Assembly (NCBI GenBank): GCA_025060415.1
Contig: JANXBT010000002.1
Coordinates: 434,001 to 498,000, forward strand
Origin: Candidatus Bipolaricaulota bacterium
GTDB lineage: Bacteria > Bipolaricaulota > Bipolaricaulia > Bipolaricaulales > Bipolaricaulaceae
Direction: 5' to 3'
DNA: 64,000 nt
This document shows, one piece after another, positions 53,545-56,901 of the stretch. The notes below the pieces were generated by a model. That model had not been told where the DNA came from and did no database searches. It saw nothing but the letters and a program-made list of their open reading frames with translations. Position 1 is the first letter of the stretch. Each line of letters starts with the position of its first letter. Made by a program: the position numbers and the translations under genes.

Positions 53545-54801
53545 CTACAGGCGGTCGATATCGGGCACAGTTCCGTCGGCGAGGCGCCAGAGCTGCTCGC
53601 CCGCGTTGGGCACCACGAGGATCCCCTCCGCCTCCCGCCCGCGGAACGCCTCAGGGTTGAGGGTGCGGGGATCGTGGTAGCCCAAGTTGATGCGGCGGCA
53701 GACCTCCTCGGGGATCCCGGTGGCCAAGATCACCTGGATGCGCGGTCTTTCTACGCCGGCGCGGAAGGTCCCGATGCCCTTCACGTGGGTGGCGTGGGCG
53801 AGCACCGCCCAGGGCACATGCTTGTACTTCTCCCACTGGGCGAGGAAGAAATCGCGCACGTGGTAGCCCACTTGCAGAAGCCACTCTCCGTGCGTAGGCG
53901 AGATCTCGCGGATGTGGGGGGCGTAGATGACGAGGGTGCCGCCGTCGGCCACCACGGGCTCGAGCTTGTACATGCACTTTCCAGCCAGCCAGAGCTCCCG
54001 GTACATGGGAGGGGCCAGGGAAAGGACGAAGTCGTAGGCGCGCGGAGCCCACACGATGTTCACCTTGGCGGAGAGGTCGGCCGCGGCCTCCCAGGCCTCC
54101 ACCACCTCTCCAAGAAAAAGCCCCAGGACCTCGTGGCCCCGCAGGACGAGGGAGAGGCCGAGTCTAGGGGTGGGCACGCACCGCGCGGCCTCCTCGATCA
54201 TCTCCCGCACGGGGGTCCACTTGTGCCCGTTCACCTTGGGGTTGGTGATGAGAGCCCCAAGCCAGTGGGAGACGTTCACCATGGTGGGGCCCGAGATCCC
54301 CGGGAAAAGATATTTATGCCCTCCCGAAAAGCCCACCACCTCGTGGGGAAACACCGGGCCCACCAGGAGGATCTGGTCGTAGGCGAGGGCGAGGCGGTTG
54401 ACCTCCACAGCCACCTCGAGCGCGAGAAGGCCCCGGGAGATCTGGGCCATGCGGTCGCGGGAGATCTCCCCTACCCGCACAAGGGCCTGGGGGTCCGCCC
54501 ACGCGTGCTGATAAACCCGGACGCGCGGGTGGGGAAAGCGGGGCCCAAAGTGTCGGGAGAGCTGAGCCTCCGAAAGGGGCGGATGGGTGCCCAGGGCCAC
54601 GAGGAACGCGAGCTCCTTTACCCGAGGGAGCACAGCTTCGATTAGGGCCTCGTAGATCACGGGCATGGGCAGAGTACGGGTGTCGTCGGGGACGATCACA
54701 AGGAGTCGGTCCCGCGTGAAATCCGTTTGGCTTAAGAACTCCTGGAGTTTAGTGCGGAGCTCCGGCTCAGGGATAGGACGGCCAGGGGCGAACCCTAGCA
54801 T
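53545..54801 (-). CDS. LarA-like nickel-pincer 2-hydroxyacid racemase/epimerase
   Basis: 418 residues, family length. PDDTRTLPMP near the N-terminus, GTHPPLSEAQL, and FPHEVVGFSGGHKYLFPG with the lysine that binds the pincer cofactor and the catalytic histidine, then VSHWLGA, define LarA. LarA racemises lactate with a covalently bound nickel pyridinium dithiocarboxylate nucleotide; homologues act on other 2-hydroxy acids including sugar acids. It overlaps gnd by seven bases, so a sugar-acid substrate such as gluconate is a fair inference. The cofactor genes larB, larC and larE are not in the window. GC is lower than in flanking genes. Confidence 0.87.
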   Translation of the reverse strand: MLGFAPGRPIPEPELRTKLQEFLSQTDFTRDRLLVIVPDDTRTLPMPVIYEALIEAVLPRVKELAFLVALGTHPPLSEAQLSRHFGPRFPHPRVRVYQHAWADPQALVRVGEISRDRMAQISRGLLALEVAVEVNRLALAYDQILLVGPVFPHEVVGFSGGHKYLFPGISGPTMVNVSHWLGALITNPKVNGHKWTPVREMIEEAARCVPTPRLGLSLVLRGHEVLGLFLGEVVEAWEAAADLSAKVNIVWAPRAYDFVLSLAPPMYRELWLAGKCMYKLEPVVADGGTLVIYAPHIREISPTHGEWLLQVGYHVRDFFLAQWEKYKHVPWAVLAHATHVKGIGTFRAGVERPRIQVILATGIPEEVCRRINLGYHDPRTLNPEAFRGREAEGILVVPNAGEQLWRLADGTVPDIDRL

Positions 54802-56210
54802 CGCGGGGCCTCCTCCCAGCGGGTATGGAATTTCCCAGGCCTGTCCAAGCGCTCGTAGGTGTGGGCGCCGAAGTAGTCCCGCTGCGCCTGGGTGAGGTTA
54901 GCCGGAAGCCGCCCGGTACGGTAGGCATCGAGGAAGTTTAGGGCCGAACTGAAGGCGGGCACGGGGATCCCTGTCCGGTGCGCCAGGCATACGACGTCCC
55001 GCAGGCTCTCCTGCCCTTTAACCCAAAACTCTCGGAACGGCTCCGCTAAAACAAGGAGCGGGAGATCGGGCTCCCGTCGGAAGGCCTCGCGCATATCTTG
55101 AAGCATCCGCGCACGAATGATGCACCCTGCGGTCCAGACCCGCGCCACCTCCGCCAAGGAAAAGCCATAGCCGTGTTCCGTTGAGGCATCCCGCAGCTGC
55201 CGGAACCCTTGGGCGTAGGCGGTGATCACAGCCAAAGCGTAAGCCTTGCGGAGGTTCTCGAGGGTTTCCTGCACGGGAAGGGGAGGGTTGGGGGCCGGAC
55301 CGGGCAGAACCTTTTCTGCACGCACGCGCTCCTCCTTTAGGGCGGAGACAATGCGGGCGAACACGGCTTCGGCGAGGGTGGGCGTGGGCGCCCCAAGGTC
55401 CAGCGCCGCTTGGGTGGACCACTTCCCTGTCCCCTTTTGCTCCGCCGCGTCCTTTATCGCCTCCACCAAAAACCCGCCGGTCTCGGAGTCCTTGGTGCGC
55501 AGGATGTCCACCGTGATCTCAAGAAGGTAGGACTCCAGCTCCTTTTGATTCCATTCCGCAAAGACGGCGGCGATCTCAGAGGGAGTAAACCCAAGGCCGC
55601 GTTTTAAGAGGTCATAGCATTCAGCGATGGTTTGCATGATGGCGTATTCGATGCCGTTGTGCACCATTTTCACGTAGTGTCCAGACCCGCCGGGGCCGAA
55701 GTAACCGGTGCAGGGTCCATCCAGACCTCGAGCAGCGATGGCTTCAAAGATCGGCTCAATGCGGGCGTAGTCCGCGGCATGGCCCCCGGCCATGAGGGCT
55801 GGGCCTTCCAGAGCCCCAGCCTCCCCGCCGGAGATCCCCACCCCAAGGTAAAGAAGGCCGCGGGATTCGGCCTCACGGATTCGCCGCTCGGTGTCAGCAA
55901 AATGGGAGTTCCCCCCATCGATCAGGAGGTCGCCTGGTTCAAGGAGGGGGAAAAGCTCGGAAGGGACCTCGTCCACGGGCCTCCCGGCCTGAACCATAAG
56001 GAGGATAGCCCGGGGCCGCGCCAGGGCGCTCACGAACTCCGGAAGCGCGAAAGTGGGAAGGATCGGCTCGTCTTTTACGCGCGCCATGAGGGCTTGGGTG
56101 CGCTCGGCGCTGCGGTTGTAGCCGGCCACTGAGAAGCCATGTTGGGCCATGTTCAAGGCCAAATTTTGGCCCATCGTGGCCAGGCCAATGACGCCAAACT
56201 GGGCCTTCAT
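54795..56210 (-). CDS. gnd: 6-phosphogluconate dehydrogenase (decarboxylating)
   Basis: 471 residues. The NADP-binding GVIGLATMGQNLALNMA, IDGGNSHFADTERR, GVGISGGEAGALEGPALMAGG, the active-site GHYVKMVHNGIEY and the C-terminal RAQRDYFGAHTY-like helix are intact. It oxidises 6-phosphogluconate to ribulose 5-phosphate and CO2. The ATG overlaps the stop of the degenerate HAD gene (ATGA), showing the two were once translated together. Base composition is clearly poorer in G+C than in most of the window (many TTT, TTA, AAA), suggesting a different origin. Confidence 0.96.
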   Translation of the reverse strand: MKAQFGVIGLATMGQNLALNMAQHGFSVAGYNRSAERTQALMARVKDEPILPTFALPEFVSALARPRAILLMVQAGRPVDEVPSELFPLLEPGDLLIDGGNSHFADTERRIREAESRGLLYLGVGISGGEAGALEGPALMAGGHAADYARIEPIFEAIAARGLDGPCTGYFGPGGSGHYVKMVHNGIEYAIMQTIAECYDLLKRGLGFTPSEIAAVFAEWNQKELESYLLEITVDILRTKDSETGGFLVEAIKDAAEQKGTGKWSTQAALDLGAPTPTLAEAVFARIVSALKEERVRAEKVLPGPAPNPPLPVQETLENLRKAYALAVITAYAQGFRQLRDASTEHGYGFSLAEVARVWTAGCIIRARMLQDMREAFRREPDLPLLVLAEPFREFWVKGQESLRDVVCLAHRTGIPVPAFSSALNFLDAYRTGRLPANLTQAQRDYFGAHTYERLDRPGKFHTRWEEAPRC

Positions 56211-56654
56211 CCTTCCGCCTCCCACGGGGGCCGCTCCGGCAGGGCCCGCTCGAACTGGGCGATCTTCTCCTCCAGAAAGGAAACGATCCAAGCCCACCCG
56301 ATAGAACTCCTCCCAGGAGTCCTCCTCGTGCCCAGGGATGATGGGGTAGAAAAGGACCCCGTTTTCCCTGGCGGCCTCCAAATCCCCGGGCGCATCCCCG
56401 ATCATAAGGACATGGTCCTTGGCATAGTGGCGGGCCATGGCCACGATTTGCTGGGATTTTGTGCCCATCTCCTGCCCGCAGATGAGCCGCGCGTATTTAT
56501 CGATTCCGTGCTCGGCTCACTCCCGCTCCCGGGCCTCCACCGGACTCTGGGAGACCACTACCATGTCCGCTATGTTTTGCAGATGCGCCAAGGTCTCGCG
56601 CAGGTAGGGGAAGAGCGGGATTCCTTTAACGATCTCCTTGATGGCCCAATTCAC
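56207..56654 (-). pseudogene. Broken HAD-family phosphatase (nonsense codon, frameshift, lost N-terminus)
   Basis: Pieces in two frames give a recognisable HAD hydrolase C-terminal two thirds: an IKGIPLFPYLRETLAHL-like segment, VVVSQSPVEARERE, then a TGA at 56517-56519 in the middle of the expected EREWAEHGI (TGG to TGA), then GQEMGTKSQQI and the catalytic MIGDAPGDLEAARENG. Near 56271-56285 the frame shifts so that the usual end, LEEKIAQFERALPERPPW, is in another frame. The N-terminus with the nucleophile aspartate is missing. It overlaps the gnd start. It would have been a sugar-phosphate phosphatase; it is unlikely to work now. Confidence 0.85.
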
Positions 56655-56901
56655 TCGCTCGCTCCCGCGCCGCTTCCTCCACACCCTTAGTGATTTCCGC
56701 AAAGAAGGGGTTTAGGATGTCTGGCACAATGAGGCCTAGAGCACCAAGGGATCCCTTGACTAACCCGCGAGCAAGCTCGTTGCGCTTGTAGCCAAGAAGC
56801 TCGGCCAAGCGTTGGATACTAAGAGGGGAATCGTTCAGGGCTCGGGAGACGGTAGACGGAGAAACTCCTGCCATTTTGGCAATGTCCTTGATCGTAACCA
56901 T
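56626..56901 (-). pseudogene. Truncated LacI-family regulator
   Basis: A 91-codon reading frame begins with a good LacI helix-turn-helix (VTIKDIAKMAGVSPSTVSRAL) but lacks about eight residues (usually SEETRERI) before RLAELLGYKRNELARG. It then enters the periplasmic-binding domain (GLIVPDILNPFFAEITKGVEEAA) and stops after a few foreign residues, where the HAD remnant begins in another frame. A deletion seems to have fused the 5' end of lacI to the middle of the HAD gene. A free DNA-binding domain might still be made, but without the sugar-sensing domain. Confidence 0.8.

Follow-up and report, generated by a model that had tools for sequence, protein, structure and literature searches.

The closest described counterparts of the locus presented here come from Thermotoga maritima. 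According to the available part of PMC7583248, of which groups 18-20 are taken here as the GntE-type class, the protein deposited as 4NAR in the Protein Data Bank (PDB) is GntE2 (LarAH20), with D-mannonate/D-gluconate epimerase activity. The UxaR locus of the same organism includes, in the accessible text of PMC3750489, gnd, uxaE, uxaD, gntE and gntK. Our analysis concerns a larA-like gene and the adjoining gnd gene in a 64-kb stretch of a Candidatus Bipolaricaulota bacterium (contig JANXBT010000002.1, positions 434,001 to 498,000), hereafter called the window. We consider it rather probable that a catabolic operon once stood here of which this pair, its last two genes, survives as the 3' end, that the larA-like gene encodes a GntE-type enzyme, and that both genes lie on a recombined tract. 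The features of the locus, with their evidence, are as follows.

53545..54801, minus strand: larA-like gene, 418 aa, predicted GntE-type nickel-pincer epimerase (D-mannonate/D-gluconate 2-epimerase); Lar_N, 4nar, residues, tree
54795..56210, minus strand: gnd, 6-phosphogluconate dehydrogenase, 471 aa; 6PGD, NAD_binding_2, NF006765, TIGR00873
56212..56664, minus strand: HAD-family pseudogene, 3' part; HAD_2 and Hydrolase matches when read through, alignment to intact copies
56656..56901, minus strand: about 80 codons from the 5' end of a gene for a LacI-family regulator; LacI match over profile positions 1-23 only
52950..56560, no strand: recombined tract running from the 5' part of dnaX across the larA-like gene and gnd through most of the HAD remnant; block identities and synonymous divergence (dS)

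The larA-like and gnd genes overlap, as the initial annotation had noticed, and they share 7 bp. Gnd passed both NF006765 (637 bits, cut-off 413) and the equivalog model TIGR00873 (607 bits against 427, over profile positions 1-466 of 467). Of the HAD phosphatase and LacI regulator that the same annotation had placed upstream, the reading frames exist, but both are broken fragments; a working HAD protein and a working LacI were rejected because frame-by-frame reading showed fragments, a stop, a frameshift and a fusion. The HAD remnant begins at about residue 145 and lacks the N-terminal half including the catalytic motif (DSDG near residue 23 in the intact copy). It carries a TGA at 56517-56519 and a frameshifting deletion near 56270, and aligns with 90% identity to an intact copy over the latter's residues 145-275; relatives have intact copies. 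The lacI fragment is a 91-codon frame in which the Pfam LacI profile is covered over 23 of 46 positions, with codons missing within the DNA-binding domain relative to intact LacI; neither this domain nor the effector domain is complete. It runs, in a different frame, into the second half of the HAD gene, the join lying around 56656-56665 within about 10 nucleotides that are also present in the intact HAD gene and that the lost part of lacI presumably shared.

Orthologue neighbourhoods, in which genes were called with a simple script and then clustered, provided the intact form. The most complete locus (L057, genome G097) holds LacI, a frame of 228 aa without identification, IolG, IolM, IolN, UxaE, a short-chain dehydrogenase/reductase, a phosphofructokinase (PFK)-like protein, HAD, Gnd and a LarA homologue; with this LacI, the window's lacI fragment shares 64% identity. 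At other loci (e.g. L051, L052) an IolO-like protein, with TM_0416 as its top structure match, precedes UxaE. In a relative's operon IolG (479 bits, cut-off 355), IolM (558, cut-off 450), IolN (301, cut-off 245) and the D-mannonate oxidoreductase (392, cut-off 281) passed their NCBIfam models, those of the three Iol proteins at equivalog level, and UxaE passed Pfam (492 bits against 27). Among the best 80 of at least 584 loci, 9 of these being Bipolaricaulota, an oxidoreductase was found within about 6 kb in 39 cases, gnd in 36, HAD in 28, UxaE in 16 and the PFK-like kinase in 15; these counts describe the nearest relatives only, and the module occurs in other phyla as well. Compared with the T. 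maritima UxaR locus, the partners gnd, UxaE and oxidoreductase are shared, whereas a PFK-like kinase and HAD are found for gntK and LacI for UxaR, and the window copy has lost the remaining operon. Judged from these profiles and from the course of the inositol pathway in T. maritima, the operon reads as a Thermotoga-like degradation of inositol or hexuronate into the pentose phosphate pathway. Unlike the Thermotoga-type inositol pathway, the genes are joined in one operon with uronate and gluconate genes, and none of the inositol genes is left in the window.

The intact operon of related Bipolaricaulota thus runs in the order LacI, IolG, IolM, IolN, (IolO), UxaE, D-mannonate oxidoreductase, PFK-family kinase, HAD, Gnd and LarA homologue. 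Myo-inositol or a hexuronate would yield D-tagaturonate, which UxaE would convert to D-fructuronate and the oxidoreductase to D-mannonate. The LarA homologue would then invert C2 by proton-coupled hydride transfer to the nickel-pincer nucleotide (NPN), giving D-gluconate; the PFK-like kinase, possibly dependent on pyrophosphate (PPi), would produce 6-phosphogluconate, and Gnd would release ribulose-5-phosphate and CO2. A deletion in the window genome would have fused lacI to HAD and removed all genes between, leaving gnd and the epimerase without regulator and feeder enzymes. Since the lacI fragment resembles the operon's LacI, one lacI-into-HAD deletion would account for this loss; we infer a single event, because no intact lacI from the window's own lineage was found.

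Other states of the operon were observed in the same genus. The bin of the sister species, G021, holds two versions on contigs C110 (L037:4055-5428) and C141 (L077): at L037 uxaE and the end of the PFK-like gene form one in-frame fusion, the oxidoreductase between them being lost, and at L077 uxaE, oxidoreductase, kinase, HAD and the start of gnd are separate. It is possible that this bin contains a second strain. In G019, another species of the genus (L056), the larA-like gene has shrunk to a 137-aa fragment and HAD to its last 65 residues; the same operon has therefore decayed independently there. A small protein without Pfam match (c13) adjoins LarA genes in one genus and also adjoins alaS.

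Sequence, fold and phylogeny all placed the larA-like protein near GntE2, its nearest characterised enzyme (about 30% identity, same cofactor and catalytic residues). It matched the Lar_N domain, and a sequence search of structures returned 4nar on top (expect value 1.6e-55), followed by lactate racemases (1e-11). The predicted model (P0001; mean predicted local distance difference test score 93.7, predicted template modelling score 0.92) superposed on 4nar with a template modelling (TM) score of 0.90, against TM 0.66-0.78 for lactate racemases. NPN-binding R42, K163 and H179 and catalytic D39, H99, H153 and K275 were present in 26/26 orthologues, the fragments of G019 and G035 standing outside this set. 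In the pocket, E154, V155 and W271 were invariant and A332 occurred in 25 of 26 rows, the alignment of the A332 region being unsure; the EV loop, the W and the G-K were kept in every orthologue. E and V at this loop are usual for GntE in the portion of PMC11770544 that was available. The tree comprised 66 proteins (26 orthologues, 23 of the 71 other-phylum relatives, 12 c5-cluster LarA homologues and 5 references). A 100/100 branch parted the larA-like protein from the four lactate/malate racemases and left it on the side of T. maritima GntE2, the sole characterised GntE of the tree, itself on a long branch. Residues, tree and predicted fold thus agree on an enzyme of the predicted D-gluconate 2-epimerase (GntE) kind. 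The initial annotation had proposed a gluconate-type sugar acid rather than lactate and had named a position among lactate racemases as the outcome that would speak against it; the protein was not placed there, and tree, residues and neighbourhood bear the proposal out.

That the larA-like gene encodes a lactate or malate racemase can hardly be right. The Lar_N domain and weak NCBIfam matches (malate racemase 105 bits, lactate racemase 80 bits) are compatible with such a function, and the fold, NPN and catalytic residues are those of LarA and Mar2. These matches are, however, far under the cut-offs (500 and 460, respectively), the pocket loop is E154-V155 instead of F-F in LarA and Y-K in Mar2, W271 and G274 also differ, the tree separates the clades, and the neighbourhood is one of sugar-acid metabolism; a racemase was thus rejected on tree, residues and context. 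It appears quite unlikely, in turn, that the A/T-rich stretch reflects no more than ordinary local fluctuation, or decay alone, without transfer. The composition is not uniform: the higher A/T content reported for 54000-56900 was recovered in sliding windows (GC 0.630 against a mean of 0.699, standard deviation (SD) 0.027, z -2.6, over all 2901-bp windows of the 64 kb), 1.4% of these windows being as low; the minimum window begins at 54201 and the lowest 1-kb window is 56001-57000 (0.599). In favour of fluctuation, low third-position GC is not confined to this pair: larA-like (0.845) and gnd (0.748) compare with a mean of 0.89 (SD 0.07) over 48 window genes called with our own simple gene caller, and three other called genes are lower than gnd, so that, some calls being possibly spurious, the composition is unusual and not unique. 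Pseudogenes, moreover, can drift. Neither process fits the comparison with G021, which has the same order larA-dnaX-recR. Block identities to this species are mostly 80-95% inside the tract and 57-76% beyond. Synonymous divergence drops three- to four-fold within it (larA 91% identical, dS 0.30; gnd 86%, dS 0.54) relative to the neighbouring dnaX (73%, dS 1.07) and to recR (75%, dS 1.32), climbing sharply inside dnaX, where high identity ends near 52950. The tract is also G+C-richer than its flanks in G021 and poorer than its surroundings in the window genome. From these sequence comparisons, the island is best read as a recombined tract shared between species: its composition would be unusual because the last two operon genes sit on DNA exchanged by homologous recombination, with the still A/T-richer lacI/HAD remains adding to the low G+C.

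Several observations weigh against the reading of the pair as the end of a collapsed operon with a GntE-type enzyme. The order from LacI to LarA was complete at one fetched locus only (L057, without IolO next to IolN), the remaining loci being rearranged or interrupted by contig ends. The IolO-like protein fell under its NCBIfam cut-off (230 against 300), though this model was the nearest. With 169 of the 500 bits required, the larA-like protein is far under the sole hexonate-epimerase model (NF052594, group 18) and is not filed in that group; its clade, including five other-phylum relatives scanned with NCBIfam, is likewise far under this cut-off and is treated as an unnamed LarA subfamily. 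The absence of an intact lacI from the window's own lineage belongs here as well, and, the genome being 91% complete, single absences in it are weak. Finally, the PFK-like protein, sole kinase of an operon whose proposed route requires a gluconate kinase, passes the PPi-phosphofructokinase subfamily model (383 against 273) and may therefore act on fructose- or sedoheptulose-phosphate; it is possible that it is a true PPi-phosphofructokinase. The 25 aligned module PFK-like proteins have a common distinct motif, with proline in 24 of them where 3k2q has a lysine that we take to bind the sugar phosphate. The D and K of the GGND- and KT(I/V)DND-type motifs, presumably marks of PPi use, are kept in all 25. 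No FGGY kinase was found in five UxaE-bearing genomes (G030, G031, G039, G095, G099); at L107 an FGGY kinase sits between oxidoreductase and gnd, and at L153 a PfkB-family protein follows gnd.

Whether the pair still acts in the window genome (G000; 1.35 Mb) is a separate matter. A working unit, in which external D-mannonate or D-gluconate would be imported and epimerised before an unrecognised kinase adds the phosphate and Gnd carries out the decarboxylation, is possible, although we lean against it. Both reading frames are intact, all key residues are retained, the ratio of nonsynonymous to synonymous divergence (dN/dS) from G021 is 0.12 for larA and 0.11 for gnd, and the larA branch shows no excess of changes in G000 (9, against 13 in G021). 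This ratio near 0.1 would, however, express constraint over the divergence from G021, mostly before the collapse, and not present action. Further, for gnd the G000 branch carries 19 changes, against 9, the regulator is destroyed, the cofactor genes were not found in G000, and the larA-like gene is already a fragment in G019. No UxaE, close PFK-like kinase, FGGY kinase or glucose-6-phosphate dehydrogenase was found in G000, so that Gnd has no visible substrate source and the pair may be a relic.

To our knowledge, the nickel-pincer nucleotide is made by one pathway, LarB, LarE and LarC. In G000 we found no LarC (PF01969), no AIRC/LarB and no TIGR00268 (LarE) match above cut-off; a 52-bit match at G000:C30 was rejected as a hidden LarE, being a GMP-synthase C-terminal-domain protein. 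Across 100 Bipolaricaulota genomes, LarC was found in 16, above-cut-off LarE in 16 and Lar_N in 52, the last figure including weak matches (G058 under the cut-off, G011 and G059 just over). Lar_N and LarC occurred together in G041 and G042 only, 50 of the 52 Lar_N genomes lacking LarC. In the 40 genomes of the window's family, f1, and the 33 of f9, LarC and above-cut-off LarE were each found in 0/73 genomes, against Lar_N in 47/73 (weak matches included); AIRC (LarB or PurE) was present in 0/40 of f1 and 5/33 of f9. LarC was absent from all 26 genomes with a full-length orthologue, where about 23 would be expected from completeness (69-96%), and present in 44 of 50 other-phylum genomes carrying a relative, a control that covered 50 of the 71 non-Bipolaricaulota loci. 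These counts led us to reject the absence both as an artefact of metagenome-assembled genomes, for the lineage, and as a trait of this LarA subfamily. T. maritima, used as a search control, has LarC, in contrast to the window's lineage.

In the f1/f9 lineage the enzyme would thus have outlived, or never needed, the known cofactor pathway, and it may rely on cofactor that is salvaged or made by other means, or on a replacement. Replacement, with f1/f9 LarA homologues acting without NPN, as apo-proteins or with another cofactor, appears unlikely. The zero counts for LarC and LarE beside frequent Lar_N are what it would predict, but R, K and H of the NPN site, like D, H, H and K of the catalytic set, are invariant in the orthologues, and the same residues recur in other-phylum relatives, most of whose genomes have LarC. 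The NPN residues are likewise conserved in twelve other aligned LarA homologues from the phylum, of which one lacks H99 and one comes from the LarC-bearing G042. Since LarC, above-cut-off LarE and, in the window's own family, AIRC/LarB are missing, loading would depend on scavenging or on an unknown route of synthesis. We regard as evenly balanced the proposition that f1 and f9 run LarA-type epimerases and racemases without LarB, LarC and LarE, on cofactor obtained through an undescribed route, either uptake from neighbours or a second pathway.

Conversely, LarC without Lar_N was observed in 14 of the 16 LarC-bearing genomes (G040, G043, G046-G056, G063). Possibly these 14 produce nickel-pincer cofactor that serves an unknown protein, a proposal already made for cyanobacteria, where genomes with LarB, LarC and LarE and without LarA are described in the accessible part of PMC11796402. 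The likeness lies in the uncoupling of cofactor pathway and enzyme within one lineage; judged against that part of PMC11796402, the window's families are the reverse case, an enzyme without the pathway. As the LarC-bearing families of the phylum are mostly without LarA, cofactor producers and users may be different organisms. The literature search surfaced no report of LarA without LarB, LarC and LarE, nor of inositol or uronate genes in Bipolaricaulota; a different LarA subfamily is treated in the available part of PMC12611868.

Elsewhere in the window, the nickel-iron hydrogenase subunit MbhL, which the initial annotation had mentioned as another nickel-dependent enzyme, is real.

41201-42793, minus strand: MbhL, NiFe large subunit; Complex1_49kDa and NiFeSe_Hases, with the RICGIC and DPCICC cysteine pairs

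These cysteines are presumably nickel ligands. The gene lies in a membrane-bound hydrogenase-like cluster (40212-46379, minus strand) with NADHdh, the NiFe large subunit, Proton_antipo_M and MnhB. Also on the minus strand are a sulfur-transfer enzyme of the PP-loop kind (37988-39400), in which a zinc motif of the TtuA type follows about 170 residues without Pfam match, a sugar-type ATP-binding cassette transporter with a solute-binding protein and two permeases (11599-14925), and a PhoPQ_related family protein (34702-36354, 264 bits).

With intact, fused and deleted forms within one genus, the locus represents a catabolic operon caught in collapse. The operon itself predicts a gluconate-type kinase inside the phosphofructokinase family. 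Whether the cofactor is shared between organisms or made by a second pathway can be tested directly in a lineage that keeps the enzymes and all cofactor-binding residues and in which no LarC was found.

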